Of a stretch of DNA of 64,000 bases, positions 3,621-55,307 are shown one piece after another. Under the pieces are notes generated by a model that worked only from the letters and a program-made list of their open reading frames with translations, did no database searches and had not been told where the DNA came from. Each line of letters begins with the position of its first letter. Position 1 is the first letter of the stretch. The DNA comes from Ulota crispa. Lineage: Eukaryota > Streptophyta > Bryopsida > Orthotrichales > Orthotrichaceae. The DNA lies in assembly GCA_963920765.1 (NCBI GenBank), contig OY987251.1, positions 7,070,501 through 7,134,500 of the forward strand. The letters run 5' to 3'. The position numbers and the translations under genes are program-made.

Positions 3621-3860
3621 TTAACCCTTAAAGGAGTGAGGAGCCTTTTGCGACCAATACAGTACTTGATATTTTCTTGTGTTTGGAATGCACTCACACC
3701 TTTACTACATGTGAAATCAACAAAACAGTTAGAATATAGATCAATGCGGTTCTAGTGAGTTAGTCAAGATCCCAAATTAAAACTTTTTATTGGTAGCAAA
3801 TACCAATTATATGACAGCGTATATACTATGTAATATGTAGAGCGGTCCTTTAAGGGTTAA
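3621..3860. mobile_element. TTAA-flanked MITE (piggyBac-like), 240 bp, subfamily A
   Basis: The ends are TTAA-CCCTTAAAGGA and TCCTTTAAGGG-TTAA, a perfect 11-bp terminal inverted repeat between TTAA target copies. The interior (TTTTGCGACCAATAC and onward) aligns along its length with the element at 30581-30815, and more weakly with 54367-54598. No coding capacity. TTAA duplication plus CCC-starting ends is characteristic of the piggyBac superfamily; the assignment is by ends only. Confidence 0.8.
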
Positions 3861-4260
3861 ATTTCTTCTCATACGCTGGTAGAGTTTGCCTGACCAACTT
3901 TACATAAGGCAAGGATCTTTGCATGGGAATTTTGGATGTAAGGTCTTGTTGTCTTTTGTGCGTCAAGCATTGTCCATAGCCCTCAAGTAGTGGGGCTTTA
4001 TGTCCAAAATTCTTTCGTAGGGATCCCTAATCCTCTATATAAGACCCATTTACCTTTGAAACTCCTAGATTTTTGCATGCATCTTATTTGAGGGCCCTCT
4101 TGATCAAAACTTTACAAAAATGTCCTTGAGAAAAGGGGGCCTCACGCCTTGAAAAGCACCTCTACTTTTGGCCTTTCCCCAAATAAGGTGCTTCAAGCCT
4201 AAGGGAGGAACCCATAGATAAAAGGCGCTTTATTTTGGGAAAAGCTAAAATCAAAGTGTC

Positions 4261-4988
4261 TTAACCCTTAAAGGATCACTTGTCACTTTGGAGGATAAAT
4301 GGGATTTTGGGCATGTACTTATGGCTGAACTACTTTGTGTAATTTTTTGAAATTTTTATGGAAGATGGGGAATTGAAAAATATGTGTGGACATCAAATTT
4401 TTCCTTCATTCCAACATTTATTAAAGAAGTTAAAAATGAATTTATGAGAATTTTTGTTCTGCAGGCAGCCCAAAAACTTCTTTAAAAATTGAACTTTTTT
4501 AAAATAAAAAAATTAGGTTAGTTCTTTAGACTTACGTATATGTGGGAAGCTTTGAATCATTCAATTCTAATTGATGAGATAAAAGTTATGAGAAGTTTTA
4601 GTTTGTGGGTAGGTGTGGAAAATCTCAAAACTATGCCTACATGTAAACTAAAACTTCTCATAACTTTTATCTCATCTATTAGAATTGAATGATTCAAAAC
4701 TTCCCACATATACACAAGTCTAAAGAAATAACCTCAAATTTTTAATTTAAAAAGATGCAATTTTTAAAGAAGTTTTTGGACTACCCGCAAAACAAAAATT
4801 CTCATAAATTCATTTTTAACTTCTTCAATAAATGTCGCAATGAGGGAAAAATTTGATGTCCACACATATTTTTGAATTCCCCATCTTCCATAAAAATTTC
4901 AAAAAACTTACACAAAGTAGTTTAGCCATAAATACATGCCCAAAATCCCATTTGTCCCCCGTAGGGACAAGTGGTCCTTTAGGGGTTA
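4261..4988. mobile_element. Long foldback TTAA element (subfamily C), about 728 bp
   Basis: Begins TTAACCCTTAAAGGATCACT. The right half is the reverse complement of the left half over about 350 bp per arm, centred near 4620, and ends GTGGTCCTTTAGGGGTTA. The right target copy reads TTAG, so one base has changed or been lost. The element would fold into one long hairpin. It shares arm sequence (TACATGCCCAAAATCC) with the element at 45778-46899. No coding capacity. Confidence 0.8.
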
Positions 4989-5395
4989 GGGTTGATTCTC
5001 ACTTGGCTTTTTGAAAGACCGGTATTAAAACATAGAAATGTTCATTGTAGTACAAAAAACAGCATTCAGTGTTGTACACCTCAGAAAGTAAGCATTCAAA
5101 TTTCTAAGCGGGAATTAAGTGAGGCCTCGTTCACACATAAGATCATATGTAATCATAAAGTTCCCCTACAATATGCCAACAAGGCAAAACTCATGATGTG
5201 AAATGCAGGGGTTCACACATTGATTCAATGTATTCTAAAAATCACATCCCTTGCTCGCACAAAGCTGACTTTTGTCGCGCTTGTCTTCTTCTTCTCAACA
5301 TTGCACCTGGTCTGAGAGGCGTGCTGTAAATTTTTGTCTGTTGCGTAGTTTTTCTTGAAGTGGTCACCAAAGGTGAGGTGGGGAGTGTCGGCGTT

Positions 5396-5545
5396 CAAAG
5401 TCGTGATACATTATGCAAACTCTGAAGCAATGGTCGCCACGCACTTTGGGGTTGCGGAAGAATCTTGTATCAACACCGTGAGGAAGCAGTTTGTGACACC
5501 ACGCGGGGATTGGCATGGTTCCCGAAATTTTTGACTTTTGCCTCT
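5396..5545 (+). pseudogene. Possible decayed DNA-transposon transposase fragment (PIF/Harbinger-like HTH)
   Basis: One frame reads YANSEAMVATHFGVAEESCINTVRK in pieces, the look of the helix-turn-helix before the DDE domain in plant PIF/Harbinger nucleases. It is followed by WHGSRNF and a stop. The surrounding 5230-5960 is richer in GC than its neighbours but has no long open frame. No catalytic acidic residues could be placed. Identification is from general resemblance only; any HTH protein relic is possible. Confidence 0.3.
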
Positions 5546-6867
5546 TGCAATATGCAATGCTTCTTACATTGGCCGTTGAATTGGTTGTTTCTTAGTTCAT
5601 TCCTTGCATAGAGCAACATACCTCTAGAGTTGTACGACCTCACTCACATGCTCAATAAGTTAACAAGATAGTCGCTAAATGTTGAAGTCAGTTTACTGGA
5701 GGAGCCTCATTGCCAAGTGTTTATGTGTACCCATGTCACAGCTGCTTGACTCTAGCACTGTTGCAACAACCGTAGGCACAAAAAGGGAGTTTCACCAAAA
5801 GTTCAATGATTTTTATCTCTGCACTCTTTTGTAATTGATCTTCATAGCCCACAATACCAAATACCGCCTGAAAGATCCCAAAGTTCCCTAAAATCTCCAT
5901 TTTAGAGAAGATGTTGCACTGCTAACAGTTTGCAAAAAATCCCTAAAGTTATAGAATGTTATCATGTAATTTGGCTAACAACAGCTATTACAAGCCTGCC
6001 AACAAGGCTGCCACATTGGCTTGGAATCTATCAATGCCATGTAGTGCAAACAACCACTTTGCAACACGCTTGAAATACCGCTGCTTGCTAAACCGTAAGT
6101 ACAAGTGCAAATGGGGCTTTATCCTATACAATATTCCAATTCATTTTTTATTTGAAATTTTGAAAGGACAAACAACTACTAGCAAAGTCAAGGAAAGACT
6201 TAGCAAATAATAATTGCCATATCACATTTTAAAAACAACCTATGGCAAAATATTGATAGCATTTTATTCATTGCAGGTGAAATTTATAACAAACTTACAA
6301 ATAAGGCTGGGGCCATTCAAAGCCAAGAATCCTGTAAGTAACTTAGGTAGCCTCCAAGTGTAGGTCATTAGTATTTTATACATAAAATTTAGTGTGCCAT
6401 ATATTGGATCCTGTCTAGGTTTAATTTACTATAACTTGTGTGTACAGCTAGGTGCACAACTAGGCTAGACATACAATGAAAAAGAAATTGCTTGGTTAGG
6501 TCATTGTGTGTTTCCATTTTAGACCAACTCACTTTCTCTCTAATACACATGATATTAGTGAACTTCAATCACCCTAATCCTTTGAAAACCCATGAAAATA
6601 GGCAAAAATCCACGCTCGTGAGTTGTATACTTCTTTATCTAATCCTTTTCCATTCAACTCCCTTTTCAATTCTAGATTTCTTCATAAAGAATATAGCCTA
6701 GAATAAATTACAATGAAATGGAAGTTATAAGTAATGATATAGTTTCATCAAATAGACCATTTTGCCAATTTCAAGTAATTATAGAAATCCTTTAATCCTT
6801 GCCTATGAGCTAAATAGCCCCCCAAAAAACAGCTCTTGTTGCACGGGGTACTCAAAACATACATAGA

Positions 6868-7113
6868 GTGCCTCCCTTGAGTTGGGAACAAGGACAGAAC
6901 TGAACTAGTGACACAAAAGTGAGATTGCTTGTGCGTGAGGCCCTTAGCTTATGTAAATGTTGCTTGAAATAATACTGCCACATGTTCTTTTTTGCTAGCA
7001 AGAGTGAAATTATGCAACATGACACTCCTCTGCAATTTCCATTGTTACGTTCACAAATATACAAGGGCAACCAAAAATGCTAAAGGTATTTGTTCAAGCA
7101 ACATCTACAAAAA
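6868..7113. repeat. Dispersed repeat with internal foldback (family G), copy 1
   Basis: The segment ending in an inverted pair (ATGTTGCTTGAA near 6956 and TTCAAGCAACAT near 7092) matches 29190-29439, including the upstream phrase TGAGGCCCTTAGCTT. The two copies differ by many substitutions, so the insertions are old. No coding potential. Confidence 0.6.
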
Positions 7114-7475
7114 AAAGTCCATCCACTGTGAGCCAATTGCATCACTACAATACAACTCTAAAATCAATGAAACGTGAGCGGACAAAAAAACAGAAAAAAA
7201 AAGAAAAAAGAAAAAAAAGTGCTACTTTCTAGTCTCAAACTGTACCCTTTATTATGGAAACTATTCAATGAACTAAAGATTGCAAAGAAATCTATCCTTC
7301 AAAGAGCCTTCAGTTGATCAAGCAGCCAATATCCAAAGTTACTATATAACATTCCCCGTTGCCTCACGATCCAGAGTGATGTTGTCGGTAACACTCGGAT
7401 TCAGTATCAAAAACTCCTGCCAGGTGCAAAACTTGTGAAAAAAAAGATGCCTGTGACCACTCCAGCAAGAAAACT

Positions 7476-7701
7476 ACACTAACTACTGCAGTGCATTTAG
7501 ATTGCCCCACACTAATTTCTCAACATTCTACACTATAAATACATACTGATACTACAATAGTTTTCATCAATAATTACTGCAATAAACAATTTTTAACAAC
7601 AAAAAGGTCTTAACAATAACATCATGCGCCTCTAAGTGGCCAAACAATGAGTCATGAGGTAACTTTCCAAAGTAAGGCAACCTAAATGCACTATTTTGTG
7701 T
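7476..7701. mobile_element. MITE-like repeat (family E), copy 1, at the 3' end of fumarase
   Basis: The ends are inverted: GTGCATTTAGATTGCC at the left, GGCAACCTAAATGCACTATT at the right. The same unit occurs at 26301-26601 (opposite orientation, kinesin intron 18) and 49701-49968. The shared interior phrase AATGAGTCATGAGGTAAC identifies all three. It ends about 55 bp beyond the fumarase stop codon, so it probably supplies part of the 3' UTR or the polyadenylation region. Confidence 0.65.
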
Positions 7702-7756
7702 ACAAGCAAAAAACGAAACCTTGGATGTTGCAACTTTGGTGTTTTTACTGACGTGC

Positions 7757-10700
7757 CTAGGATGGTCCCAACATTTTCTTCGGGTCAACCCATTCGTCAA
7801 ATTCCTCGGATGTGAGGTAGCCAAGAGTCAAAGCTGCTTCCTGTTTCACAAATAAATCAAAAAAAAAAATCAATAAACTTTGTAAAAGACATGCAGGATT
7901 TACCTCGACTTGCAAATATATTTCTGGTATTATAGAAATTTGTGTGTTTGTTTAGAGATTTTGCTTCCAAGCTAACCCACAAGAATACTGTAGTGGTATA
8001 CTGTCATGAAGAATATACAGTGGAAGACAGCATAAAGCAGCAAAGCCCTAACAATCATAAGAGCTATTCATTACACCCCTCAAGAAGTTGGAATTCTTTG
8101 TAACTATAAACAAGAAGGTTTTAGGATGAAAAGTTACAAAACAGATTAGAACTATTGTTTGTCAAAAAAGAAAGTTATTTTCATTCAAAGTCAACAATTC
8201 TTTGACATTTGTGGCCAATAATTTGTTGGTTTATGGTGTCTTGCATTATAGGATGGTGAAAATCAGGTTTCTTTAAGTTTGAGGTTTTTCAAAATAAAAA
8301 CATCTGTATATGAGTGTGCAAATAGAATACTTTCAAAATTGCAGAATATATGAAAGAGATAAGTGCCTTGCCTTTAATGTGGATCCTTCTTTGTGAGCTT
8401 TCTTCGCACATGCTGCAGCTTTGTCATACCCGATTTTCTGCCAAACATTTCGATTTGCAAAATGTCAAATACAGAGAATATGCATACATTCACTCTTTGT
8501 TTGGAGAACACCTTGCAACAAAGTCCTGTGTAATTACAAGTTTTTTACATCTGGGGGTATTAATACTTGGCCTTGCAATGGAAAATGGTGAGAGTTTTAA
8601 GGTTGCTTACAGGGTTGAGTGCAGTCACGAGCATCAGCGACTGCAATGTTTCAGTACCCCACCCCGGAACAAATTGGTCAGAAGTTCAAAAGACAATTAT
8701 TTTTAGCAAAATTAGAAATGCCACTCTTACTATAAGCACCTACTACAGTTCTACTAAAAGACATAAGAATTTCATACTCTATAATGATGAGTCCCAACAT
8801 GGCTTTTAACAAGTGTTGGAACATAAGAACTTTCTATACTTTCAAACCATTGCTTACTCTCGACCATAGAGGAATACACAACAATATCAACAAAATTCAA
8901 GTAAAATTTGACGTGCCAAAAAAATAAAAATTTGCAAAAAAGACATACCCTTCGCATCAAATCGTCAATGTGGGTACGATTCGCTTCAATACCTACAACA
9001 CAGTTCTTTCTAAAAGACTCTGCTGCGTCTCCAAGCAAAATCATTGACTGTCAAAAGAAAAGGAAATACCATGGTCGTGGAATTAGTATAATTAAAAACC
9101 AGAGTTTAAAATAAGTGTGGAAAAAAAAAAAAAAAAATCTTTGCACATAGTATAAGAATAATCTAGCAGCAAAATACCTGAAGCAAAGCGTTGATCATGA
9201 CTGGCTTATAAACATTTAGCTCAAAATGCCCGTTGGAGCCTGCCACTGTGACGGTTGTGTGGTTCCCTATTACCTGCATAAAAACTCAAAAATTAGACAA
9301 GGCAGCTACAATGCATCTAAAGAAGATATTAAAACTGACATAAAAGAGCAGCCAAAACCATTTCGAGTTGAGAGAATGAAGAAGTGGCTAAATGCAAGAC
9401 TACCCTATAAGAGAAGTGCTATTTAATTGTATTTCTCTTTCCATTTGATTTCACTATGCAAAGCTCTTTATTTGCAAACTAGAATTTCGCCTTTTTAAAA
9501 TTATAATGGCACCTGAGAAAACAAATACCTGACAGCAAACCATTGTCAATGCTTCGCATTGTGTGGGGTTGACCTTTCCCTGCAGAAACTCCCAAAAAAA
9601 ACTTATTAGTACCAGCTGGAAAAAACAACGTATGTGTACAGGAACAGAAGAAGAAAGTTTGCAAATTCTGAAACATCAGAAAACTGAGTAATAAATACAT
9701 CCTTAGCCAAGTAAAAAACAGCAGTGGAAAAAATAGGGACAGTACAGGCATAATACTGCTGCCAGGCTCGTTCTCTGGTAAGATGAGCTCGTGCAATCCA
9801 CAACGAGGTCCACTGCAAGCGTTCCAGAAAGAAAATCTCATTGTTAGAATCTGTCATTAATACCTGAAAAAGAAAAAAAGAGAAAAAGAAAAAAAGACAA
9901 CAGTTTTAAGGGAAAAGTTGATGGATAACCCTGAAGTTTGCGATATTTGTACAGATGCCCTAGGTTTTTCAGAGATTGCACAAATAACCTTGGACCATAA
10001 TTATCAAGCATTTGTTCTTTTGTGAACACCACTTCCTTCTCCCTTTGTGCGCACACAAAACAGGAAAGAAGCAATGTGCTTACAAAGGGAGAAGGAAGTG
10101 GTGTTCACAAAAGAACAAATGCTTGATAATTATGGTCCAAGGGTATTTGTGCAATTTCTGAACAACCAAGGGCATTTGTGCAAATATGGCAAACTGCAGA
10201 GGTATCCATCAAATTTTCCCTGGTTTCGATAGCTCTATCTGCGTAAGGTCATACCTTCCCAGCAATCGAATGTCATTAGCAATCTTCAAGAGAGAAACAG
10301 CAACAGTGTTGAGTGCACCACTGCATTCTACAAGTGCATCATGAGCTGCCTGCAAAAAAGCCAAGCAGCAGCAAAAATGATGCTGACACTAAACACACAC
10401 TCCCCTCACAAAAAATAAGGCTTAACCTACTAGAACGGAACCCACTATAGTGATGTTTGGATAAGGTCAACCTTTGTAACAGAAACATTTGGATAGTGTC
10501 AAGGTTTCACGCTTCTTTTCGTGTTCTCGGCCTAGTTATATGGAGTGTTTGTTTGTAGTTAATGCCGGGATATGGTCAACATTTTTTTCTTGCCCAAAGC
10601 ATTGACCTTATGCAAGCATCACTATATATATAGAAGAAACCATACCAATGCTTCAAACTTGTTTGGTGCTGTTGTGAATGGCAACCCTGTCTCTTTTGCC

Positions 10701-13334
10701 ACTTGTGCTGCAATCTTCTTATCAAACCTACAAGCCCCTTGTTGTCAGAAATTTCAAGGACACAAACCGTTAAAAAATCCTCTAAAAAAAACCAGCCAAT
10801 TGCAATACTGATTCTCTATGGTAGTGCAGGAAGGCATGATATCTAAAACTAGAAAATTTTGAGATTTTTATAAAAATGGAAAGCCCTCAACAAGGTGCAC
10901 GTTTCAATACATTGTAAATAATTTCAAGCGTTCAAATCCATGTAGATAGAGAGACTCAATCGCCTATCCAACCACCTCGTTGGACCATATGCTAGCCCTC
11001 AGTCTAGACTTCCTACAATCAGCTTGTATCTCAACCCCAAGCCTTCTTGCACTACCACAGAGAATTACCACAAAGAGTTACGAATGTTTCCAAACGTAAA
11101 CCCTGCCAATTACAATGCCCAAAACCTGAGAAATAAATCACAGAACAAACCAAGCTTTAAACCTTGCTGGATAGAAAACAAGACAGACACCATACCCTTT
11201 CTTGGTATTGAGACCAGTTCCAACAGCTGTTCCTCCTTGCGCCAGCTGGAAACAGCACAATCAATCTTAATTTGGTTTCAAGGAATTACTCATTGAAATG
11301 TTCAGTTTTAAAAACATCAAAAGTCAGGAAAATAATCAATCAACAATAAAGAGTCAGTTTCCCATAAAGAAGCTGTAAACATTAATGATACAGGTCAATA
11401 CTAACAAATTCTTTCTACAAAAGTATAATTAATGTACACACAATCACATGTCCTTACTGAATGTTTACAGAAAAGAAAACGTCCTATTCAAATATAGCAG
11501 AGTATGAGACGATGTCAAACCTGATACATGCGAGGAAGAGTATCTTCAATCCTTTGGATTCCGTACCGCACCTACACCAGCCAATGTCATCAGAGTAAGT
11601 CCACATAAACCTTTTCATACCCTCAAAATAAATATAAACAAAAAGCAAGAAAAAAAGAGGACATGTTGGAACAGGATTGTGTAGTTGTTACCTGAGTGCA
11701 ATACGCACTAAAAACTTGTCCAAGGGTAATTGGGACTGCGTCTTGAGTATGTGTGCGACCAATCTTCACAATATCTTTGAACTCATTTTGCTGCAAAATG
11801 CGAAGTCAACAGACTGTCAATGCTGAAGAAATTTAAAAAATCCATCCAACAGGTAACTCCTTTGCCAAAGAGTCTTAGAGAAAATGAGAGTGTAGCGTGT
11901 ATTTTGCATGAAAATACATCTGGAAAGTCTGATAGAGTTACCTTTTGGATCAATGCTTCATGCAAACCATGCAAATGAGGAATCAACTTAGCGTTAGCCT
12001 CAACAGCCGCTGCAATATGCATCGCCTGCCCCAAAAATTCTCAAAAAGCAGAGTTATTAGCAAAGCAATCAAATGGATATGAGACCAAAGTTGAAATCTC
12101 AAGACAAAACATTCCTCTTTTAATAAATCAAGTTATTCAAGTGTAGTCCAAAGAAAGACAAAAAAAAACAAGAATTACGTAAACTTGCAGAGAAAGTCTG
12201 GAAAAAGCAGAAAGTCTGGTACAAGAGGAAAAATGGGGGTTTGTGGCAACCAACCGTAGGAAAGGTGTCATTTGAAGATTGGCTCATATTGACATGGTCA
12301 TTAGGGTGAACACCTTTGCTTCCAATAGGAATGCCAATAATCTCACCAGCACGATTTGCGATCACCTGTACAATAAACCATACACCAAGATTCAAACAAA
12401 CAAAAAACCATGAGAAAAGCAACAAAATACAAAGCAAAAAAAGTCTTCTTTGAATATCAGTTACACCAGCTGAGTTTTGAAGTGAAGTACCTCATTGGCA
12501 TTCATGTTGGTTTGAGTGCCGCTGCCAGTTTGCCATACAACAAGTGGAAAGTGGTCGGTCAGCCTTCCTTGCGACACTTCCGAGGCGGCTTTTACAATAG
12601 CATCACCAAACTTCTTGTCCAAACCGTATTCCATGTTCACCTGCCTCAAGCACAGAAACACTTTTTACAAATGAGTATGATGCAAAACCAAAACTCTTGC
12701 GTGTTCAAAATTATAAGGAAATTTTAATGAATACTCCTGTAGTTTGCAAAAGATACTCTTGATATTTGAAATGGTAATCGTCCCCCCTCTCCAAGACTCC
12801 CCGCAATTTAAAAAGATCAAGGATATCCATCAAAGTATCACAAAATACAGAGATATCTATCCAATCCTTACAAAGTTATAATACCGAAAGCAAGGAAAAG
12901 AGAGCTTGGCAGGTATTTACAATGGCAGCGGACTTCTTGAGGATGCCGAATGCTTCAATGAGTTGTTTCGGCATCCGCTCTGTTTCACCTCCGATCTCAA
13001 AGTTTTGTACAGATCTCTGCGTCTGGGCTCCCCAGTATCTGTTCAGCACAGTTCGAGGTTACCGGCTTAAGAAAAAATGGAAAGAGATGGCGATGGAGTG
13101 ATCAAGAGCAGCTGAAAGAAGCTACAAAAAAAAGGATCCAATGAAAGAAAACAAAGAAAAGTCGACCAAAACACGATTATTACGAACTCACCGATCTTGA
13201 GGCACTTGAATGGGACCGAACGTGTCGCGCTCTTCACGGAATCCACCACCGCCCGTCAACGAGCGAGCGAACTGAAACGAGGTCGCAGCTGTGGAGGAGG
13301 CAGGGACTCGCAGTAAGCGCCGCGCGGACGCCAT
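7757..13334 (-). CDS. FUM1: Fumarate hydratase, class II, mitochondrial
   Basis: Reversible hydration of fumarate to malate in the TCA cycle; homotetramer in the mitochondrial matrix. Seventeen exons in transcript order: 13192-13334, 12921-13038, 12491-12640, 12255-12365, 11942-12025, 11692-11790, 11521-11571, 11196-11245, 10646-10727, 10255-10349, 9746-9812, 9529-9579, 9178-9273, 8949-9047, 8611-8640, 8372-8437, 7757-7840. They join in frame to 491 residues, close to the usual plant length. Residues 1-30 ([20 protein letters not shown]...) form an Arg/Ser-rich presequence. Family motifs present: [26 protein letters not shown], and the signature GSSIMPGKVNP split across exons 11/12. All introns are GT-AG except the last, which starts GC (AAAG-GCAAGG). 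The start is the first ATG, 13332-13334. Confidence 0.97.
9911..10220. mobile_element. Near-perfect foldback element (family F) inside fumarase intron 10
   Basis: The left arm from 9911 (GGAAAAGTTGATGGATAACC) and the right arm to 10220 are reverse complements over roughly 130 bp. The inner part around GAACACCACTTCCTTCTCCC is virtually identical. It fills about 310 of the 442 bp of this intron. A related single arm is seen at 28670-28760. The open frames on both strands here are products of the palindrome, not genes. Confidence 0.75.
10446..10626. mobile_element. MITE (family I) in fumarase intron 9, TA-flanked
   Basis: Inverted ends of about 30 bp: TATAGTGATGTTTGGATAAG at the left, complementary to TTGACCTTATGCAAGCATCA at the right, bounded by TATA. 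Length about 180 bp. TA flanks suggest a Tc1/mariner-type origin, but the AT-rich context makes the exact duplication uncertain. A related piece lies in 2800-3118. Confidence 0.6.
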
Positions 13335-14498: not shown

Positions 14499-14502
14499 TA
14501 AA

Positions 14503-30560: not shown

Positions 30561-30580
30561 AAAATCATCCACCTTGGTGT

Positions 30581-30815
30581 TTAACCTTTAAATGCCTACA
30601 AGACCCTTTGCGGCCAATTCAATACAAGGTGTTTTTCTTGTACTTGGAATGGATCTACACCATTATTACATTTGAGATCAATAAAAGAGTTGAAATATAG
30701 ATCAACGCACTTTTTGTGAGCTATTTGAGATCCCAAATAAAAACTTATTGTTGGTAGTAAATGCCAATTACTATAATAATGTATCTACTATCTCCGTGGG
30801 ATGTTTAAGAGTTAA
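30581..30815. mobile_element. TTAA-flanked MITE (piggyBac-like), subfamily A, copy 2
   Basis: The ends are TTAACCTTTAAATG and TGTTTAAGAGTTAA. The interior aligns along its length with 3621-3860: CCCTTTGCGGCCAATTC, ATTACATTTGAGATCAA, GAAATATAGATCAACGC, TATTTGAGATCCCAAAT. Divergence of the ends shows an old insertion. Confidence 0.75.
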
Positions 30816-32710: not shown

Positions 32711-34060
32711 TGGATACAATCACAATGACTTTTGTAATATCACATATGTCCCTTTATAATATTAGTATATCACACATCAATCTTTGTGACATTATCTCGT
32801 ACATAAGTTATGAAGACTTATTGAAGTTTTTATCAAGGAGTTTGTGAAACTTTGCAAGAGTGGTTATTTTGGATATTGTGGTTCAGCCACCACCTTGTAA
32901 CTTTAAGAAAACTTCCAAATAAACTTATCCTGAAACCTTAACAAATTGAAAGTTTGACACCTACTAATGCCTTAATAATTGTAATTTACAATAAAGTCCA
33001 AAAATTAGATCCAATACACCAAAGAGGCTTGTGATATCTTGCAAAAAACTTTTAGTCCTTTGGGGCGTTCAAGGAGTAAAACCTAGTTGGAAATTGATAA
33101 ACCTTGCTTTGCAAACAAAAAGGATCATTCATGAAGTGTGTGCATGTTTTAAACAAAATACAATCCAACTTACCACGTAAATATGCATGAATGTAATGTT
33201 CTTTGCTCAAAACATGAGAGTCCAAACCACTAGTATGTGAACATAAATAGAGGTGTAGTTAACCAAGCAAACATAATTGAGGTAAAACAATTGATTGATT
33301 TTAGAAAACTTAACTTGAATATATACATTGGTACATTTGAATTGAGTATATTCCAAGTTGTAGTTAAGCCCAAATTGGTCAAGCAAATAAAAAAGCCCTA
33401 GCAATTCTTGACTCACCATTCTATTTTGTAGCTAAATTCATACATCACAATAGTCTACAGTACCTAATCCCAAATAGATTTCTTGCTAATTATAAAAATT
33501 TTACTTTTTATTTTTAATAAATTAGATGTGTTTTCCAATGAGGTATACCAATACCAAAACACCACAACATTGACATTCTACTTACATCATTTTTCGGTTT
33601 TAGTGCATATACAAAGAATACGAAGAGTCTTCACATTACAATATAAATCCATTTTCACCTTTGTTTTAGTTTTGAAATCGTATGAATAAAATGTATTCTC
33701 AATCAACATGATTACAATAGTGTTTTGTGTTATTTTGACATTTATTGTACCCATACACACCTATCAATTAATTGAAAAAACATTGAAATTATCAACAATA
33801 TTTGGGGATTGAGATGTTTGCGTTATAGGTGGCCTCAAAAGCATCATTCAAACTAAACTTGTGATAAGAACTACAACCAATGCCTTCAACCAATGTCCAA
33901 GGAGAATTGGCATTTTGTGTATTGTCAACCAATTCAAATTCCAAAAGAGCCAATTGAACTTGAAACTATCAACTAAAACACTTCCCTTCTTTTTTAAACT
34001 AGCAATAGTACATTACAAAATAAATATATATAATATCTAGTGCAATTCAATGAAAAACCA

Positions 34061-34232
34061 GTTGAAAATGGAAAGTGCCAAATTTTAACCCCTAAACATC
34101 TGGGGGTCATCGTGGAAACACGGGTTTAGTGTATTTTGCGCGGACAGTTGAAAATGGAAAGTGCCAAATTTTAACCCCTAAACATCTGGGGGTCATCGTG
34201 GAAACACGGGTTTAGTGTATTTTGCGCGGACA
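34061..34232. repeat. Exact 86-bp tandem duplication
   Basis: GTTGAAAATGGAAAGTGCCA at 34061 recurs at 34147, and the two 86-bp units are identical. Each holds the left end and first half of the adjoining TTAA element, ending GCGCGGACA. The duplication is therefore recent and younger than that insertion. Confidence 0.95.
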
Positions 34233-34263
34233 AAAAATGTCCTCTTCGACATTTAGGGGTTAA
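34171..34263. mobile_element. Short TTAA-flanked MITE, 93 bp
   Basis: TTAA-CCCCTAAACATCTGGGG at the left; ACATTTAGGGG-TTAA at the right. The interior TTTAGTGTATTTTGCGCGG resembles the interior of the 70-bp element at 54831-54900 (TGTAGTGTATTTC). Its left half is duplicated just upstream. Confidence 0.75.
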
Positions 34264-45184: not shown

Positions 45185-45777
45185 GTGAGTACCAATTCAA
45201 CGCCAAATCCCAGCTTTTGTTGGATTGTTTGAAAGACAAAGCTTGGTAAGCCTATCCCTTATGCTTTTGCTTTTGTCAGGTTGTTTTGAAAGATGATAAG
45301 GTAATGTGCTCTAAATTGGTGTAGTGCTCTAAAACTGTGCACTTTTAGGAATGGCTGACATTGTTCTTTCAAATATATATTAATTACTGTCATTGATGAG
45401 TTAGGTGGGCTTAGCAAATTAGGTTAACTTGCTAAGCACACCTAACTCATCAATGACAGTAATAGCTATTTGAAAGAATAATGTCAGCCGTCCTTAAAAA
45501 TGAACCCTTTTAGAGCACACTACCTTAGGGGGTTTCAACACTCACTTGATATATCTATCATCTAAAGGTGTTTTTTTTTTGGGAATTGATATATGTAATT
45601 ATGTACCACCCCTTTCTGACTATTCTACTACATCTATTATATATGGTAAAGCTTTACAATATTAAAGTAGGTGTGGACTACGGGAAAAAACATCGCTAAC
45701 TTGAAAATGCAACGCTTGATGTAAAAGTTGCAACTTTGATTTTGTATTTTAGCTTTGGATCCCACTCATAGTATCAA

Positions 45778-46899
45778 TTAACCCCTAAAGGTCCAAGCCC
45801 CTTTTTTTGTGAAAGTCACTAAAAAAATGCCACTTTGGGGGGAATGAGTAGAAAGTAGGAAATAAAATTTGTTTTGCAAATCCAATTGTAGGATCTTGCC
45901 TTAGACTAGAAGAGGTACTTGTGGGAAAAAAATCAGGTCATTATAGATGGAGGGGAAGGAGATGTTTACATCTAAAGTGAAAAAAAATGTTTTTTTCCAT
46001 GCGGTCCAAAAAATTCAAAAGCCTTTGACCACTCATACATGAAAAAAATTGATCTACACAAAGTTGAGGTTTATTTTTTCCATGTAGAAGACCAAGTTAG
46101 GTATGTATGGGAGAATTTTCAAATCAATTGGAACTATACAACACATGGGAAAAAAGTAGTAAATAAAAAGAAGCAAAGAATGAGTCAAATCACTAAATTG
46201 TTAAGAATTTAGTTATGGAAATGAAAAATGCAAACCCCAATAGTTATAATGTTGTAATAAACATCTATTTCTTGTAGGTTTACTTCTTTTTCCAAAATAT
46301 TGAAAATCATAGAAAATAAAGCACTTCAAAGTTTACTTTAGAGTAGAGGATTTGTAACTGCCCACAAACTAAACATCTCATAACTCTCATCTCATTGATT
46401 GAAATTGAATGATTCAAAGCTTCTCAAGTATAAAATATTCTAAAGAGACAATTTTGAATTTTGAATTTTTATTTAAATGTAATTTTTAAAGAAATTTTTG
46501 GGCTGCCCTGCAAAAAAATTTGCATAACTTCTTTCTCAAATGTCAAAATGAAGAAGAAATTAGATGTTTGCCTAGGTCTTGGAACTCCCCACCTTTAATA
46601 AAAGTTTCAAAAAATCACACAAACTAGTTTAACTATAGGTAAAAGTTTCAAAAAATCACACAAACTAGTTTAGCTATAGGTAAAAGTTTCAAAAAATCAC
46701 ACAAACTAGTTTAGCTATAGGTAAAAGTTTCAAAAAATCACACAAACTAGTTTAGCTATAGGTAAAAGTTTCAAAAAATCACACAAACTAGTTTAGCTAT
46801 AGGTAAAAGTTTCAAAAAATCACACAAACTAGTTTAGCTATAGGTACATGCCCAAAATCCAATTGACCCCAAGGGGACAATTGGGCCATTAGGGGTTAA
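45778..46899. mobile_element. TTAA-flanked foldback element (subfamily C), 1.1 kb, nested
   Basis: TTAACCCCTAAAGGTCCAAG at the left; GGGCCATTAGGGGTTAA at the right. The right arm (ATAAAAGTTTCAAAAAATCA, TACATGCCCAAAATCC) resembles the right arm of 4261-4988. The left arm resembles, in reverse, 48820-49145. It inserted at a TTAA in the centre of a family B element. It contains a six-copy 41-bp tandem array. Confidence 0.75.
46599..46844. repeat. 41-bp tandem repeat, six near-identical copies
   Basis: The unit TAAAAGTTTCAAAAAATCAC continues ACAAACTAGTTTAGCTATAGG. Copies start at 46599, 46640, 46681, 46722, 46763 and 46804. The first copy has AACT where the others have AGCT. The single-copy form of the unit is in the arm of 4261-4988, so the array is a local expansion of element sequence. 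Confidence 0.95.
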
Positions 46900-47494
46900 G
46901 AAATCTAAGTTATGCTTAGTTTAATTTAGACTTATTAAAATTGATATTATGAGTGGGATCCAAAGTTGAAAAACAAAATTGAAGTTGCAACTTCTACATC
47001 AAGTTGCATTTCAAATTAGTGATGTTTTTCCCATGATCCACACCTACTTTACTATTATAAAGATTTACCATATATAGTAGATGTGGTAGAATAGTCAAAA
47101 ATAGTGGTACATGTATCAATTCCTTTTTTTTTCGATCCATTTAATGACACCAAAATCTTGAATTCTCACAATGGTTTCAAGGCTGGTTTCTTGTTGTTTA
47201 TCTTGCTTTCTCAAGCATATGACTACGCTTGCATTCTCCGACACCTCCATAAGCTTCTTCAATTTTATTTTATTTTTGAGTGATACAAATTCCACATTGT
47301 GTTGTAAAATCGCCCATAAAAAAGAAACAAATCCTAGGTTTGAAACCCTCTAATGAGGAGACATTTCTAAATCACATGGGACTTCAAACTTGAGACAAAC
47401 AATATTTTTTCAAGCTATTAGTCTCAATTTTTAATGTCTTGCCGAATCGTGTCTTGAAAATCATATGAGACTTGGAACACGTTGTAAACCAGCC

Positions 47495-47731
47495 TTAACC
47501 CGTAAGCACCCCAACAACAGGATCTTGTCGTTGGGGATCTCAAGTTTATCTCACTTTTTCTCTCGATCAGTACTCTGAAAAAAGTCGTGGCTGGTCCCCA
47601 TTAGCAAAGAAGGTGGTCCTTTTTCAAATGTTACGGTCACTTTTTTGAATGTAATTTTCCAAGCTATGGTGGCCATTAAACCCCTTATTTTCTCCTAAAC
47701 CCTAAAACAACTCTGGGTGCTCAGGGGTTAA
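47495..47731. mobile_element. TTAA-flanked MITE, 237 bp (subfamily with GCACCC/GGGTGC ends)
   Basis: TTAA-CCCGTAAGCACCCC at the left; CTGGGTGCTCAGGGG-TTAA at the right. The end sequence resembles 55058-55307 (CCCTTAAGCGCCC). Non-coding. Confidence 0.7.
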
Positions 47732-48819
47732 GTATTTTATGCATCATACACCACACCATTTATTTTTCTCCATCTCTTTTACCACCTCATGGGTAGAAAC
47801 CTCAATAAAAAGGAAGAAATTTGCACATATGGCATGTCAAGGGAGGATGTTTCCTCTATATTTGCTTTACTTGTTCTATGATACATTGTGATGTACTATA
47901 ATCAGTTTCCTTGAAGAATCTAATCAAATTTTAGCTGATAGTTTCAAATTTCAACCAATTCTTTTGCAATTTCAACAGGGTTTTCTGCACCCACCCACTG
48001 ACGCACTTTGGACAAAGGTATTGAATTATGGCTCTACTTTTTTTGCTGATTCTTCTCTGGCAACGACCAACTGTACTTTAGGAGGCTCTCAGTCTTGGTC
48101 TGATGGGCCATCTGTCAGGCAGCGTGCAAATTATCCAAAAGCCCTTTGCTCAATGCTCATGAACCCATGAAAGATTTGGCAAAGGAGAGGCCATGAAACG
48201 AGGCGCAGTCAATTTCCGGTAGTTCTCATAAGCCAATCAGATAAAGCCTGCTGGCAGCCCATACCGTGAGAGAGGTTGACAAAAGCCTAGATTCCCATAT
48301 AATTTCTTCTTCTTTTCATCTTCCTTTTACTTTCACCCTATTCATTACTATAGGCCAAGGGTTAGATGACGCTAGTATATGGGCACACGCAAACGTGCAA
48401 GGCAACTTTACAAAAAGTTACCTCATAACCAATCTAAAATTTAACTTTGATGCAATGTCAGTTTGGTCCTTTATTAAAACCAAAATAGTAATTTTCTTGT
48501 TACTCTATGATACTTTGTCAGGGAGCACTTGGCATTTTGTTGGTTTTTTAAAACATGGTTGGAGGATGTCTGGTGTTCTATATTAATGGAGTGTAAGAAG
48601 TCAGTCTTGGGGGATTCCCAATCCTCTATTCCTTTTGTCTTTTGCAAAATTTGGTAGTTTATTTTTATGAGCAATTTGTGTATATATTTTTTTAGTTTTT
48701 TTTCCAAGTTGTAGCAAGCTGAGAGTCCTTACTTTTCATTATTAGATTAGTGTAATTTGAATTTTTGAGTTATACGTAAAGCATCCAATTTTGCCTATTG
48801 TATTTGCAAATTTTAGGAC

Positions 48820-49145
48820 CTTCTAGCATTCAGAGATTTTTTGGAGTATGTTGAACATTTCCAAATCATTTGAGAATTCTCCAACACATGCCTAACTTGG
48901 TTTACTACATGAAAAAAATAAACCTCAATGTTGTGTAGAGTAAATTCTTTGCTATAGGAGCGGTCAAAGGCCTCTACAATTCTACATACTTTGAGCAAGG
49001 AGGAAAAAAACTTTATTTTTCACTTCAAATGTCAATATTTCACTCCTTTCCATTTGAAATGAGCTGATTTTTTTCCCACAAGTACCTCTCATAGTCAAGG
49101 GCAAGATCCTACAATTAAAATTTCAAAAAATAAATAAATTCTACC
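48820..49145. repeat. Reversed relative of the left arm of the nested TTAA element
   Basis: TCCCACAAGTACCTCTCATA, GGGCAAGATCCTACAATTAA, CAACACATGCCTAACTTGGT and ACATGAAAAAAATAAACCTC match the reverse complement of 45830-46120 with substitutions. It is probably a fragment of another subfamily C copy. Confidence 0.6.
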
Positions 49146-49700
49146 TTTCTAGCAGTGATCCCAAATATGATTTACACTTTTAGCATAAGTGGCTAAAAAC
49201 ATTGCTAAGAAGCTAAAATTTTCAAATTTAACACTAGAAAGCTTACATTTTTTTAGCAACGAGGAAAAATTGTTAGCAATCTTGCTAAATTTAGCCAATT
49301 TAGAGAACACTTCTTACAACTCATTGGCCTTGAAGTAACTATCTAGAGTGACTTTTGCAAAAAAAAAAGGCTCAATCCTTTAGGGCAGTTAAGTCATGCC
49401 ACATGTCCCAAAGGGAAGTGGGAAGTAATGAGTAGCAAGTAGTTTGGCTATTATCAAAATTGCATGAGTATATAGGTTGGATGAGTGCAAAGCACTTTTT
49501 GACTCCCAAAATTCAAAATAATTTTAGTTTTGCAAATAAAATCACAAAAAAATCGTGGTTCCAATATTTCTTATCTCCCTACGTAAGAAAAATATATGTT
49601 ACCTCAAACTCTTTGTAATTTGTTGCAAAATTGCTTGAGATATTGGGTATGGGTTCTTGTACCTTACAAACGTATAAGATATTAACATGTTTTGTTCAAT

Positions 49701-49968
49701 ACACTAAATAGTGCATTTAGGTTGCTCCACATTGATTTCTTGACATTCTACACTACAATAACTTCATCAAATTTTTTTGCATCAAACACTTTTTTAAATG
49801 CTTAATACCAACAATAAAGCTACACAAAAACAAACTAGCAACTTCTAGGTTGTAAATCAAGTGGTGAAATCCTAACATCTACAAAGTTGCATGCAACTAC
49901 AAGTGGCTAAGCAATGACTCATGAGGTAGCTTTCCAAGGTATGGCAACCAAAATACAATATTTAGTGC
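49701..49968. mobile_element. MITE-like repeat (family E), copy 3
   Basis: The inverted ends are ACACTAAATAGTGCATTTAG and CAAAATACAATATTTAGTGC. The interior CAATGACTCATGAGGTAGC is shared with 7476-7701 and 26301-26601. This copy has the clearest termini. Confidence 0.65.
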
Positions 49969-49979
49969 AAAGAATTAAA

Positions 49980-50290
49980 AAATGCTATCTAAAGATGAAA
50001 AAAATTATTTTTCATCTAATTTATTTTAGAAGTGATCATGAAAACATGGTTTATCATAGAAGGCAAAAAAATAACCTCATCGAATGCACTCATGTTTTTA
50101 GGTAACTCAAATTGTGAGAAAATTCACAAACACAATATTAGGTCCCATATTACCCTTCTTTCAATTTTCATGAGGACAACATGCACTCTTAACTTTTGTA
50201 AATTTTTGACTCAATATTAAATTGTTTGGACACTTGCAAGTTGCAACACCATTATAGCATTATAGTAAATGGTAGGCACAATGACAACTC
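49980..50290. repeat. Dispersed repeat (family D), copy 3, reverse orientation
   Basis: AAGTGATCATGAAAACATGG, AGGCAAAAAAATAACCTCAT and TTCATGAGGACAACATGCAC match the reverse complement of 30300-30530. It abuts the TTAA element at 50304. Confidence 0.55.
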
Positions 50291-50303
50291 CAGTATTTAA
50301 AGA

Positions 50304-51165
50304 TTAACTCTTAAAGGATCAGATCCTATAAGGATAAAATGGACTTTGGGCAAGCATATATTATTGGGTATTTTAATCATTTATTTTGAATGCTTTCTCT
50401 AAGATAGGGTTTTGCAAGACTGTGCAAGGTATAATTTTTATTGGAATTGGATTCAAACTTCAAAACTTATTGACAATTAGAGGAGAATTTTAGTTAGAGG
50501 GGCAAGTCAAGCATGCCATTTTTTGTTGACCTCCCAAGGGCAACCAAAGAAGACATGACCCTCCATTAGAGTATGTCCAAAGTAGTAGTGGATTACATAA
50601 ATTCATTATTATATTAGATAAACATACAAACTTTTGAATTGTGATAGCTATTAGAGATTTGGTGTTTTTTTTGGTTGTTATTAAATCTAAAATCATATAA
50701 TTCATTATTTGATTTTTTTTTTTTTTTTTTTTAAACATCCTTTGAAAACTTGGTTTGCTAAAGACCTCAATGTAATGTAAAATTCAAGCACACTTTTGCA
50801 ATCTAAGGCCATGTAGGGTGTGCTCCATGTCTTTGTTGACCTCGAAAACTTGTAAAAATATACTTAACATGATTTAGAACATTTTGGACAAATCTTTACA
50901 ACACTTGCATCCGTCCACAACATGTGATCAAGAGGACCCAAAGATCGTGGGCAAAGGTCAAATCACTGCCTTTCTAACTTTAAATGACCATATCTCTTGA
51001 TCTTTACAGTCAAAGCACATAAAATTTTCACCATGTCTTCTTGCATAAATCTAATGCAAGATCTTACATGAAAAATATAATTTTTTGTTCAAGGAGCAAA
51101 TGACTAGAAATGACGATTTTGAGTATTGTTGCGATACAAAATGGGCTTGGTCCTACAGGGGTTAA
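50304..51165. mobile_element. TTAA-flanked element, about 862 bp
   Basis: TTAACTCTTAAAGGATCAGA at the left; GGTCCTACAGGGGTTAA at the right. The terminal repeat is imperfect beyond the CCC-like start, so this is an older or more diverged member. No transposase frame. The poly-T run at 50710 lies inside. Confidence 0.5.
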
Positions 51166-53119
51166 CATGGAGATAAATATCTACAGTAATGCTATCTACC
51201 AGTGACTGCAGGACACGTGCACACTTGGTTGGAGTAATGTGTGTTGACAACTGTTCTGAACGGCATTTTTATGGTATCTTACAAATAGTGAAATGGAAAT
51301 TGGGTCTTCCATTGTCAAATGATAACTATTTGTACACATCACCCCCAATCTTTCTTTTTTGTATTTTTTATAAAAGTTTGCTTATGTCTCAAAACAAATC
51401 AATACTTGCCCCATGAGTTAAAGACAAATAAGGATTACTTCAAAGCAATGAGCGGGTAGATTAAAGGGAAAATAGAAAGTCAGCTATATGAAATATGATA
51501 AAAAATTGGTTGAAATTTATATAAACTGAATAAAAAGTGGCTTGTTTTTTGGGAAATGTCTAATTATAGGATAAGTACATAAGCAACATGCAATGCAAGC
51601 ACTAAAAACCAATTAAATTTGAGAAATACAAGATTTCGTTTATCAAGGAAGCTCAAAACACCAAAAGAATCTATTATTTTTTTGACATGTTTTTTAGAAT
51701 GTTCACTAGTTTTTATGTTAACTATGACATCAAACATAACATTAATATGTTAGTTTTAACATTAATTGTGACATAAAATTAAACAAACGTCAAAAAAATT
51801 TGTCAAAAAAAGCACGGATTTCTTCTAGTGAGATCTCCTAGGACATTACTTAAAATTAGAAGCAAGTGGGAGATAGTTCCCCTAGTCATGTCCATCCTTC
51901 ACACTTCAATCCAATGTCTAGGGAGATTTTGGGCTTCCTTGATAAAAATCTAACATTTGTCATTATCAATCGTTTTTTTGGGTGCATGCATTAGATATTA
52001 CATTTAAACTTATGTTGTAATTAGATATAACTTGAAAATCTAACTACTTTTTGCTAGACTCATTCAAATTTCAACCAACTTTTTTTGACATTTCATTTAG
52101 CTAACTTTCTATTGTTTTTCGAAGTCCTTCCTCATAGCTTTATACTACTCATATTATTTTTGAGAGCATTTTCAATGCAATCTTGTAAACTTGACATCAA
52201 CAGTAAATGAATGGTGCAAATCCTTTGCCACAAACTGTGCTCACAATGTTTACCATCGATTTGCTGTATAATGCATGTATAAAGGTTTGCATTGAGGATA
52301 CCCTCTCCAAAAAATCTATTGCTTATGTTAATTGTGTGAGGCATTTTTCTATATCGCATTTTGCTTTGTTAATAAATTTTCCAAATATAACTATTCAATT
52401 AAAACATACAGTGTTTGTAAGTCATTTATGAGGAATTTCTTTTTGTGAACAAGCCAAAATCAAACATAGAATTATTTGATCACCTAATATTAATTGTTAT
52501 TATGATTTGATCCATTAAAGAGCTTTCTAGAAAATTTCAACATTAAACAAAGTTGTTAATGAGTAAATTTTTCATGCAATGTGGTTTGTTGAAGAAAATT
52601 CATTGGGCAATTTTGCAAAAGACTTTTCATTTGAAACGGATTGTATTTTCATAATCACTTCAAGAGTAATTGAATTTACTACAACAGAGTTGTAGGTTTC
52701 TGTTTCCTTGTTTGTAAGAGAAATTTTCAACCGTTGTTTTATTAGAAACATTTTCTAGAAAGTTCAGTCATCTCAGGGTGGATTGCATAAAATTTATTAT
52801 GTGACCATAGTTTGATCATATGTATGTATTTTGATTGGGAACAATTTTATTTAATCAAGCCTTTCTTTGATAGTCAAGGATTCCCAAATCTTTGAGTCAC
52901 AACAGATTACTGTAGCATTTGATATGGAATTTGTAGGAGTATCATGTATTTTTCTGGCAAATCCATTGGAAATTTTTAATCCAATACTGTCCTTTGAACA
53001 GCGATGTGTATTTTGTAACTAAATAAAACTTGCACGTTAGCCCTCAAAACTTTCTCTCAACCAAGTAGGATTCATTGCAATAGTGACGAGGCCTAAGCAG
53101 TCAAAGATTATTATTATTA

Positions 53120-53531
53120 GGGGATTGATATGTCTACCACACCCTTTCAACTATTCTACCACACCTAGGAGTAAATTTTAGATTTCTACCATCAAATAGT
53201 TGAATTTGAAAATTTGGAATTCAGATTTGGACTTAGAGACTTTGATTTTGAATAGAATCATAAAAAAAAAGGTTGTAATTGAACTACACCCAATGAAAAA
53301 GCATAGCTCGGGGGAAAATTATTACTTTTACTTTTGTTTATAAAATAAGTAAGCTTTTTCATTGGGTGTTGTTCAAGTAGAACCTTTTTATGATTCTAGA
53401 CTAAATCATGGTCTCTAAGTCCAAATCTAAATTCCAAATTCTCAAATTCAACTATTTGATGGTAGAAATCTAAAATGTATCCCAGGGGTGTGGTAGAATA
53501 GCTGAAAGGGTGTGGTAGACATATCAATCCC
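53120..53531. mobile_element. Foldback MITE of family B type, second subfamily
   Basis: GGGGATTGATATGTCTACCA at the left; TGGTAGACATATCAATCCC at the right. The arms pair inward (CTATTCTACCACACCTAGG, ATTTCTACCATCAAATAGTT) nearly to the centre. Both flanks are ATTATTATTATTAG, so the target duplication is obscured by the microsatellite. Confidence 0.75.
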
Positions 53532-54366
53532 TTTATTATTATTATTAGTTTTGGGTGTTAATGCACACTTCAAGATGGGCTTGTATTCACGTAGTTGCAG
53601 TAAAAATATCATTTGGTAGCTTTCTGCTTGTTTGTTTTAGGAGCAAATATAAGCACCTTCACCATCAAGCATGATTGTCTTTTTCAAAAGTAAATATTTG
53701 AATTTGAGTTGTTTATATTTTTATTCTTTCAAGTGCTGCAAAGCACTTTGAGCAATGTCAATTTGGACCTTTTTTGTCAATTAGGTCATTTTGATTTGGA
53801 CTTGTCAATTTGAACATGTTTTTATCAAATCTTTGTCAATTTAGACATTTTAGTCAATTTGGACATGTTACTGTGGACAAATTTTCTTGTAATGTTCATA
53901 ATCTTCATTTTCTTGTATATTTCATGTATTTTAATGAAAGGGTGGAATGATAGTTAGTTTAATGAATTCGAGATTGTACGAATGACTTGTCGGATCAAAG
54001 TATATAAAAAGATGGAGTGAAAATAATCATGGATTTGTGTGGTGAATACTGACACTTTTAAAATATCAGTTTTCTAATACACAGTTGTAATCAAAACCTA
54101 AAAAATGTAAATCTTTAGAAATTTAATGCAATGAACTATGATCTATTGGTAAATAATTTTTTGGACTACGTTACGCTTTTAGACTAAGTTTAAGACATCA
54201 TGTCTTTAATATCTTGTTGATTCTTATCTTACTTTAAAATATTCAAAATCGATGCTCGAAACTGACTTCTTTTAAAGTTTAAATAAACGCTGAAGACTTT
54301 GATATAGGCACACCTGGGGTTTGTTATATGGCCACCTAGCGGAAGGTAAATTTTAGATAATTATCA

Positions 54367-54598
54367 TTAACCTTCAAACGTCATGAAAGCTCTTTGCGGC
54401 CATATGTATGGTTGTATGTATAGATATATTTGAGTTGTTATGAGAGTTTTCCAATTTTTTTTATGCACCTACTATCATACAACCTTTCAATATGTATGGT
54501 TGTAATACTTAATTTCTAGCTCATTCAAATGTCTAAATATTGGTTGCAATCGTATTTGGTACCGCAGCTCCAGAGCCCAAGGGCACTTCAAGGGTTAA
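54367..54598. mobile_element. TTAA-flanked MITE, subfamily A-related
   Basis: TTAACCTTCAAACGTCATGA at the left; GGCACTTCAAGGGTTAA at the right. The interior CTCTTTGCGGCCATA recalls CCTTTTGCGACCAATA of 3621-3860. Non-coding. Confidence 0.65.
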
Positions 54599-54830
54599 TA
54601 AGTTGAATTTCAAAATATTGAATTTAGATTTTGATTTAGAGATCTTGATTTAGTTTAAAACCATCAAAGGAGGTTACAAATGAACATTGCCTAATTGAAA
54701 TAATGGTTTTTGAATTTCACTAGATTTTGTACAATTTCAATTGACTGACTATGGCAAGTTCTCCCTAGAACCCAATGATAAATGAGCGCTTCTCTAGGAT
54801 TGCACTTCAAACTTATCACTTTAACCCTTT

Positions 54831-54900
54831 AACAACCGCGCAACCAACAGATGGTCGATTTGTAGTGTATTTCACACACATGCAGTTGTTAAAGGGTTAA
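54831..54900. mobile_element. Miniature TTAA element, 70 bp
   Basis: TTAA-CCCTTTAACAACCGCG at the left; CAGTTGTTAAAGGG-TTAA at the right. It is almost entirely terminal repeat, among the smallest such elements possible. Confidence 0.75.
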
Positions 54901-55057
54901 GAGATTACATTTGTTTTTGAAAAACCCTCAAAATTGTGGTTCACCACCTTTGCTCTTCAAACATGCTCAATAAATATCATTCGATCATTCACCAAAGGGA
55001 ATACAAGATAAAACTCACTAAACTAAAAAATGAATATTGTTTTGAAGGACCATTACT

Positions 55058-55307
55058 TTAACCCTTAAGCGCCCATACTTGAAACCAAAAAAACTTAACC
55101 TATTTGCAATCAAAGTGCCCCTTGTGGATTAAAAATTACAATTTACAAGATTGGACCATACAAATTATTAGTAGAAAGCATCTCCATTGTGATGGGTTTG
55201 ATTGGAGGTGGTTTGACCAAAAGAGCAATGACATTACCACACTCAAACTTGCATTGACCCAGCTTTTGGAGAGACAATATAATGTCTCTTGGGCGCTCAT
55301 GGGTTAA
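55058..55307. mobile_element. TTAA-flanked MITE, 250 bp
   Basis: TTAA-CCCTTAAGCGCCCATA at the left; TTGGGCGCTCATGGG-TTAA at the right. The ends resemble 47495-47731. A 67-codon open frame spanning it is fortuitous. Confidence 0.7.

Follow-up and report, generated by a model that had tools for sequence, protein, structure and literature searches.

What are the TTAA-bounded elements scattered along a 64,000-nucleotide stretch of the genome of the moss Ulota crispa (contig OY987251.1, positions 7,070,501 to 7,134,500), and which enzymes would have mobilized them? Ten such elements had been proposed in a sequence-only reading of this whole stretch, which is here termed the window and to which coordinates refer unless a locus is named. 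Considered together with the rest of the genome, the ten elements are best described as non-autonomous members of the piggyBac superfamily, resembling miniature inverted-repeat transposable elements (MITEs), in a moss genome, an assignment given a probability of roughly 0.94. This identity, also that favored by the sequence-only reading, is supported by copies of a PF13843 transposase found in the genome, by ends shared with those copies, by relatives containing a single TTAA and by the ranking of the window ends in a matrix derived from the transposase-bearing copies.

Inspection of each element at its coordinates revealed all ten to be present and to contain TTAAC-type ends, together accounting for 4,080 bases, or 6.4% of the window. 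Six are non-autonomous elements of 240 bp (3621-3860, with TTAACCCTTAAAGG at both ends), 235 bp (30581-30815), 237 bp (47495-47731, with GAGC-type ends), 862 bp (50304-51165), 232 bp (54367-54598) and 250 bp (55058-55307), while two are micro-elements of 93 bp (34171-34263) and 80 bp (54821-54900). The remaining two are a 729-bp foldback MITE (4261-4989) and an element (45778-46899) that sits inside an inverted-repeat element of another kind and is kin to copies of ~930 bp elsewhere in the genome (loci L038 and L040). Two borders were corrected. The start previously placed at 54831 lies at 54821, yielding an element of 80 rather than 70 bp, and the foldback element ends at 4989 rather than 4988, its right TTAA having decayed to TTAG.

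Copies of the piggyBac transposase family, PF13843, were found in the 274.8 Mb (157 contigs) of genome searched, with 116 of the 527 candidate places being scored and yielding at least 120 matches, the best at E 1.3e-73. By comparison, no match to PF13843 was obtained in 14 control genomes. When open transposase stretches were examined by Pfam, PF13843 was returned in four of five, and four transposase stretches proved to be ~26-67% identical to other loci at the protein level. Comparison of one stretch, L025, with solved transposases gave matches to piggyBat (E 2.6e-24) and piggyBac (E 7.6e-20), with the Asp residues in its ITVDE, VTDNFFT and KGVDIVDQ motifs being aligned with Asp residues of both proteins. 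These three residues are taken by us to be catalytic. As judged from these sequences, the genome would encode a DDD transposase of PF13843. Both L025 (G000:C2:34594948-34595949) and L032 (G000:C1:1180709-1181995) correspond to PF13843 matches with no internal stops, and no TTAAC(C/T) pair was found flanking either within ~4 kb. These two loci are candidates for host-adopted transposase genes or for copies with decayed ends.

The borders of transposase-bearing copies were considered in 20 loci of 9.9 kb, with borders being assigned in nine. Four of these loci, representing two pairs, were bounded by two-copy alignment. L015 and L024 are alike over 5028 bp (90.5% identity), as are L031 and L034 over 5308 and 5230 bp, respectively (89-93%), and in both pairs homology begins and halts at TTAA ends, with the flanks being unrelated. 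The terminal inverted repeats of piggyBac elements begin with CCY inside the TTAA. Such ends were found here as well, with 15 of the 18 ends of the nine copies beginning TTAACCC (the others being TTCACCC, TTAACTC and TTAACCT at the left ends of L024, L031 and L022, respectively), a share that is partly built in, since all ends other than the left end of L024 were chosen by a TTAAC[CT] search. The existence of transposase-bearing partners elsewhere in the genome is supported by copies found with the PF13843 profile that end in such termini. The commonest end type, CCCYTAAAGGACC, was seen on none of the verified-border copies among the 20 transposase loci; L017 comes nearest, with CCCCTAAAGGCCC at its right end, the left border of this locus (14/17 at 1417) being insecure.

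The window elements were linked to these copies through a matrix describing positions 5-17 of 14 ends from seven transposase-bearing copies, none of which lies in the window. L024 and L034, being the second members of the L015 and L031 pairs, did not contribute to the matrix. When the 776 TTAA orientations of the window were ranked in this manner, all 19 TTAA-intact ends of the elements fell within the top 25; the end at 4989 (CTAA) is outside this ranking and has a matrix score of 16.0. In the ranking, position 34085 was used for the equal-scoring 34171, and 34171, the true end, was counted among the other sites in the following comparison. When positions 8-17 only were scored, element ends outscored other TTAACYY sites (19 vs 34, p 3.7e-8). 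The ends of the window elements thus match the termini of copies elsewhere in the genome that contain a transposase, as befits piggyBac-derived MITEs, and their proposed non-autonomous status can be counted as supported.

Use of TTAA as target was addressed in eight junction-crossing alignments from six of 42 candidates, the 4-kb loci L003-L014 having been left out. Three candidates support one TTAA, in line with the earlier proposal that the elements are flanked by target copies of TTAA, as read here from paralogous sites. The sequence into which the 5308-bp transposase element of L031 is inserted has a counterpart in L001 (88%) that contains a single TTAA, and for L023:514-1452, a relative at 72% likewise contains one TTAA. 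In the case of 45778-46899, a relative of the host inverted-repeat element at 200-645 reads ATCAATTAAAAAAATC, the filled site being ATCAATTAA...TTAAGAAATC.

Four of the elements (34171, 47495, 54821 and 55058) served as genome-wide queries in their own right, and each recurs throughout the genome, with matches mostly halting at the same TTAA ends. For 55058-55307, 39 other copies were found among the matches listed (40 of 4,429 candidates scored; query 54300-55350), these being 85-92% identical; 35 of the 39 starts and 34 of the 39 ends lie at most 3 bases from the TTAA borders. Counting by eye gave 32/39 starts and 33/39 ends within the same distance for 47495-47731 (40 of 1,064 candidates scored), and 24/39 matches at most 3 bases off at both ends for 54821-54900 (40 of 49 candidates scored). 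With 34171-34263 (40 of 72 candidates scored, also by eye), 25 of the 39 other genome matches are on the element, 14 of those lying within 3 bases at both ends, such that the borders originally given stand; the other 14 matches correspond to a different repeat at 34005-34090. That repeat is of ~83 bp, and its 14 genome matches among those listed stop near the TTAA at 34085. Because of an 86-bp tandem duplication, a second copy of the left part of the 34171 element (TTAACCCC) is found at 34085; this position was dropped as a candidate left border, as the genome matches favor 34171-34263. Relatives of the 3621, 4261, 30581, 45778 and 50304 elements were found within the fetched loci, and one genome copy of the 54367 element, at 80% (query 64-299), appeared among the matches listed with query 54300-55350.

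Could such ends be mere palindromes arising by chance in AT-rich sequence? Some single ends and pairings are random, with TTAACCC alone being found 23 times in the window as compared to 8.5 expected, and with five of 12 pairings obtained with a pair criterion (two TTAACYY ends that face each other 60-1200 bp apart and agree in at least 8 of the next 14 bases) not being listed elements, two of these five using 34263 or 30815 as one end. The other seven pairings are listed elements, the 4261, 30581 and 54367 elements failing the criterion. Still, 100 Markov shuffles yielded a mean of 0.76 pairings and a maximum of three, against the 12 in the window, while the extended end TTAACCC[CT]T[AG]A was found 12 times with 0.3 expected. 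A looser criterion, agreement with a consensus end at 11/14 bases, was less discriminating, the 29 sites in the window being only about twice as many as in shuffled sequence (8-26). Given also that genome copies mostly end at the same TTAA borders, chance is scarcely credible as the origin of the elements. The exact pattern first tried, TTAACCCTTTCCC, was a poor guess, returning two matches as compared to 37 for its reversed control.

Other superfamilies were also considered. Kolobok elements also duplicate TTAA, although the available part of the source describing this gives their ends as 5'-RR...YY-3' (PMC9587614), whereas the ends seen here are 5'-CC...GG-3' inside the TTAA. A Tc1/mariner or Stowaway element duplicating TA inside a preferred TTAA would leave the same empty site, since this site is palindromic and an empty TTAA alone cannot separate TTAA from T-TA-A duplication. 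In that case, however, the outer base should be free. Instead, TTAACCCCTAAAGGACC occurs 8,154 times in the genome and the same end with another first base 325 times, so that T is found in 8,154 of 8,479 copies of this end and the outer T is part of the target. PIF/Harbinger (Tourist) elements, which duplicate TTA or TAA, are among the plant MITE types listed in the part of a survey that was available (PMC10004981), but in TTA-ACCC...GGGT-TAA neither flanking triplet is directly repeated, and the relatives contain a single TTAA. Moreover, it is PF13843 that is contained in the two pairs of bounded copies, the piggyBac transposase being that found in searches that did not include the transposases of Kolobok, mariner or Harbinger. 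On balance, Kolobok and Tc1/mariner are each considered very improbable and PIF/Harbinger even more so, leaving the piggyBac assignment as by far the best supported.

Several observations nonetheless weigh against assignment to piggyBac. With regard to the transposase, 110 of the 120 PF13843 matches contain an internal stop, and NCBIfam, a library serving bacteria and archaea, returned no match for two transposase stretches. With regard to borders, none were assigned in eleven of the 20 transposase loci, the right border of L015/L024 overruns the TTAA by one base, and the left TTAA of L024 reads TTCA. In L018, L019, L020, L022 and L030, borders were assigned by end similarity only, the best pair in each matching at 10-15 of 16 bases. 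Such similarity alone is a weak guide, as a wrong 9.1-kb pairing in L015 outscored the alignment-confirmed pair; fair pairs in L015 (9,125 bp, 14/16), L016 (6,010 bp, 12), L017 (6,021 bp, 10), L029 (7,674 bp, 13) and L033 (6,621 bp, 11) were left unused. The search for an autonomous copy with the same termini, as had been recommended, succeeded in part: transposase copies with such ends were obtained, but none of the loci inspected could be established as an intact element with a border at each end. With regard to the target, the empty sites are paralogous and not orthologous, a diverged relative at L028:8562-9478 lacks TTAA at the junction, two junction matches are repeat artefacts, and two of the three junction alignments for 45778-46899 carry 2-base gaps. 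Finally, the advantage of the element ends in the matrix is weaker when TTAACCC sites only are compared (15 vs 8, p 0.007).

As piggyBac elements, those in the window would have been mobilized by transposases of relatives of ~5.0-5.7 kb elsewhere in the genome, which would recognize the short ends (TTAACCC, then roughly YTNANNGNCC). An element would then be cut out and inserted into a TTAA, leaving TTAA on both sides, with recognition and cutting presumed to proceed as in the superfamily at large. If the enzyme needs only the ends, this would account for families with little in common other than their ends. The sequence-only reading had proposed at least three subfamilies sharing only their ends. 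Two pairs of window elements are related, with 3621-3860 being of the same family as 30581-30815 (77% over 188 bp to 30604-30791), and with the 4261 and 45778 elements having ~300 bp in common at 72%; the others showed no mutual match at E 1e-3. Most of the transposase copies inspected have decayed, and C/T differences between them cluster at CG and CHG, a pattern fitting plant-methylated DNA, which would imply that such methylation took place.

The origin of the different forms was considered through relatives elsewhere in the genome. Ten fetched copies of 909-963 bp, each with TTAACCCCTAAAGGACC at both ends, do not form one family. L038 and L040 align with 45778-46899 over nearly their full length at 77-80%, L041 and L043 align over parts, and L039, L044 and L045 form one group that mainly has the ends in common with this element, while L037, L042 and L046 match in part or hardly at all. 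Among the plus-strand ends listed, 17 of 48 had an exact partner no more than 2 kb away. The greater length of 45778-46899 relative to its ~930-bp relatives stems from a 41-bp tandem array (about 46599-46846). The copies in this array are 99.4% alike within an otherwise diverged element, probably reflecting recent expansion.

The 4261-4989 element resembles foldback or snap-back elements in having two inverted arms, these being 91% complementary and separated by a 22-nucleotide gap. It differs in that its arms match one end of ~930-bp TTAA elements, such that it looks to be derivative and not the representative of a separate superfamily. Each arm is a copy of an end segment of ~350 bp also found in larger elements such as L040, positions 1-350 of which match positions 1-352 of the 4261 element at 81%, while positions 2-350, inverted, match 728-377 at 80%. 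On the strength of these alignments, the foldback looks like an inverted end duplication, and others of its kind may have arisen likewise.

No window-element matches were found inside the nine bounded transposase copies, leaving the idea that the window elements are plain internal deletions of such copies unsupported. One transposase locus may, however, be related to a window element, since the right ~560 bp of 50304-51165 resembles L017:6846-7437 (in transposase-sense orientation) in three blocks of 69-89% identity; this stretch of L017 terminates with TTAACCCCTAAAGGCCC, 1.9 kb beyond the match to the transposase. Between that match and 6846-7437, no clear facing end was found (best 12/17). 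Given this similarity and the lack of a clear facing end, the element in L017 may combine a transposase with an AAAGG-type end and be the source of 50304-51165, as far as can be judged from sequence comparison.

The scale of this population became apparent when TTAACCCYTNANNGNCC was sought across the genome, yielding 31,318 matches as compared to nine for the reversed pattern. As four of the 20 window ends match TTAACCCYTNANNGNCC, the element total can be put very roughly at 4-8 x 10^4, scaled from this fraction or from ten elements per 64 kb, both of which are small numbers. The window contains four TTAACCCYTNANNGNCC ends, with the genome mean being 7.29, and two ends of a second pattern, with the mean being 3.62. 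With fewer ends than average for both patterns, the window is not a hot spot. The local burst suggested by the sequence-only reading was therefore not borne out, the more so as the copies compared are mostly 68-92% alike.

In comparisons of at least 100 bases, copies in the fetched loci differ by Kimura two-parameter (K2P) distances of 0.18-0.37, the exceptions being one short match (0.12) and self-matches, while the best genome matches differ by 8-16% and the transposase-bearing pairs by K2P distances of 0.08-0.11. The population reads as old, with many families, although copies younger than the bulk may also exist, as in the case of L044 and L045. These two are identical, inverted, ~6 kb apart and have mirrored flanks, and look like a segmental duplication.

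Because the target is also the flank of every copy, elements can be expected to land in each other's TTAA, giving rise to rows on single TTAAs, presumably one insertion after another. Such rows were seen in L048, where three elements with different end types stand in series on two shared TTAAs, and shared TTAAs are also found in L049, L050 and L051, but not in L047. Likewise, GGGGTTAACCCC, where two elements abut on one TTAA, was found at 1,074 places, as compared to three for the reversed control. Random targeting of TTAA by so many elements may suffice to generate these rows, and no preference is claimed.

Among known systems, the closest are piggyBac of Trichoplusia ni and piggyBat of bats, with which the elements described here share PF13843, the three aligned Asp motifs, TTAA and ends that are mostly CC. 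They differ in their moss host, in the 5.0-5.7 kb length of the assigned elements and in no intact bounded copy having been established. Like piggyBac-type MITEs, those in the window are short and TTAA-bounded, PiggyBac being included among angiosperm MITE superfamilies in the available part of one survey (PMC10004981); here, however, the host is not an angiosperm and the ends are tied to transposase copies in the same genome.

The plant host assumed in the sequence-only reading was borne out by a LEAFY C-terminal domain in the genome, reading KPKMRDYVHCY and GAWCQACY. We take Asp 312 and Cys 345 to define type II LEAFY and presume these residues to be those placed in the two motifs. According to the portion of the relevant study that was available, three positions (312, 345 and 387) determine the LEAFY type, and type II, present in Bryopsida mosses, occurs mostly in mosses, as well as in one liverwort (PMC6588583). 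Judged by this protein, the host is most likely a moss.

The bodies of the L015/L024 and L031/L034 pairs show C/T differences at 15-25% of CG and CHG positions as compared to 4-6% at CHH, a ~3- to 6-fold contrast. The contrast is weaker in one small-element pair (CG 10/22, CHG 7/27, CHH 65/375). Based on differences that carry no direction, this is the pattern that CG and CHG methylation in plants would be expected to leave.

piggyBac serves widely in gene transfer, and in the literature searched, accounts of where it occurs naturally among plants are sparse. In the available parts of the sources, plants are included in general statements on piggyBac range (PMC10813416; PMC10140906), a fern table gives 1,230 PiggyBac matches, corresponding to 0.00% of the assembly (PMC6890710), a Physcomitrium transposon study names Mariner elements, the word piggyBac being counted zero times there (PMC7466625), the Niphotrichum genome paper contains only "piggybacking" (PMC10619864) and the word was likewise counted zero times in the Pohlia paper (PMC9247546). 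Within open-licence main texts, partly covered and with supplements excluded, no report of moss piggyBac elements was recognized. What is new is the moss host and the scale, the elements being a set of new families of a known superfamily at high copy number. Whether the moss lineage has long kept piggyBac as a major load of DNA transposons, with several deeply separate transposase lineages, perhaps some 4-8 x 10^4 elements and rows on shared TTAAs, is a proposition to which we would give even odds. In that case, piggyBac would be native to and long-standing in some land-plant genomes, and not a superfamily of animals that strays into plants only rarely. As this genome offers candidate transposase sites by the hundreds and ends by the tens of thousands, it allows one to ask when and how land plants acquired piggyBac, whether activity persists and in what way the superfamily is controlled by DNA methylation in plants. 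Short TTAA elements of this kind may also be going under the label of unknown repeats where moss genomes have been annotated.

Other features of the window were also noted. The element at 45778-46899 splits an older inverted-repeat element of another kind (45593-47120), a relative of which, at ~215-629, represents the empty site. These two, together with 53107-53545, are inverted-repeat elements with ends near GGGRATTGATAYRT. A possible further TTAA-bounded element is found at 61485-62385, its probable end at 62385 ranking 5th among the 776 TTAA sites and its partner at 61485 being weak. Bearing on the earlier proposal that the elements are all intergenic, this end lies downstream of an exon (60213-60611) encoding an NSD-like PHD finger (PF22908, E 1e-10), and Pfam gave no sign as to whether the gene runs past 62385. 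The gene may be EDM2-like. Finally, a long simple-repeat tract at 55399-55800 yields spurious open frames.

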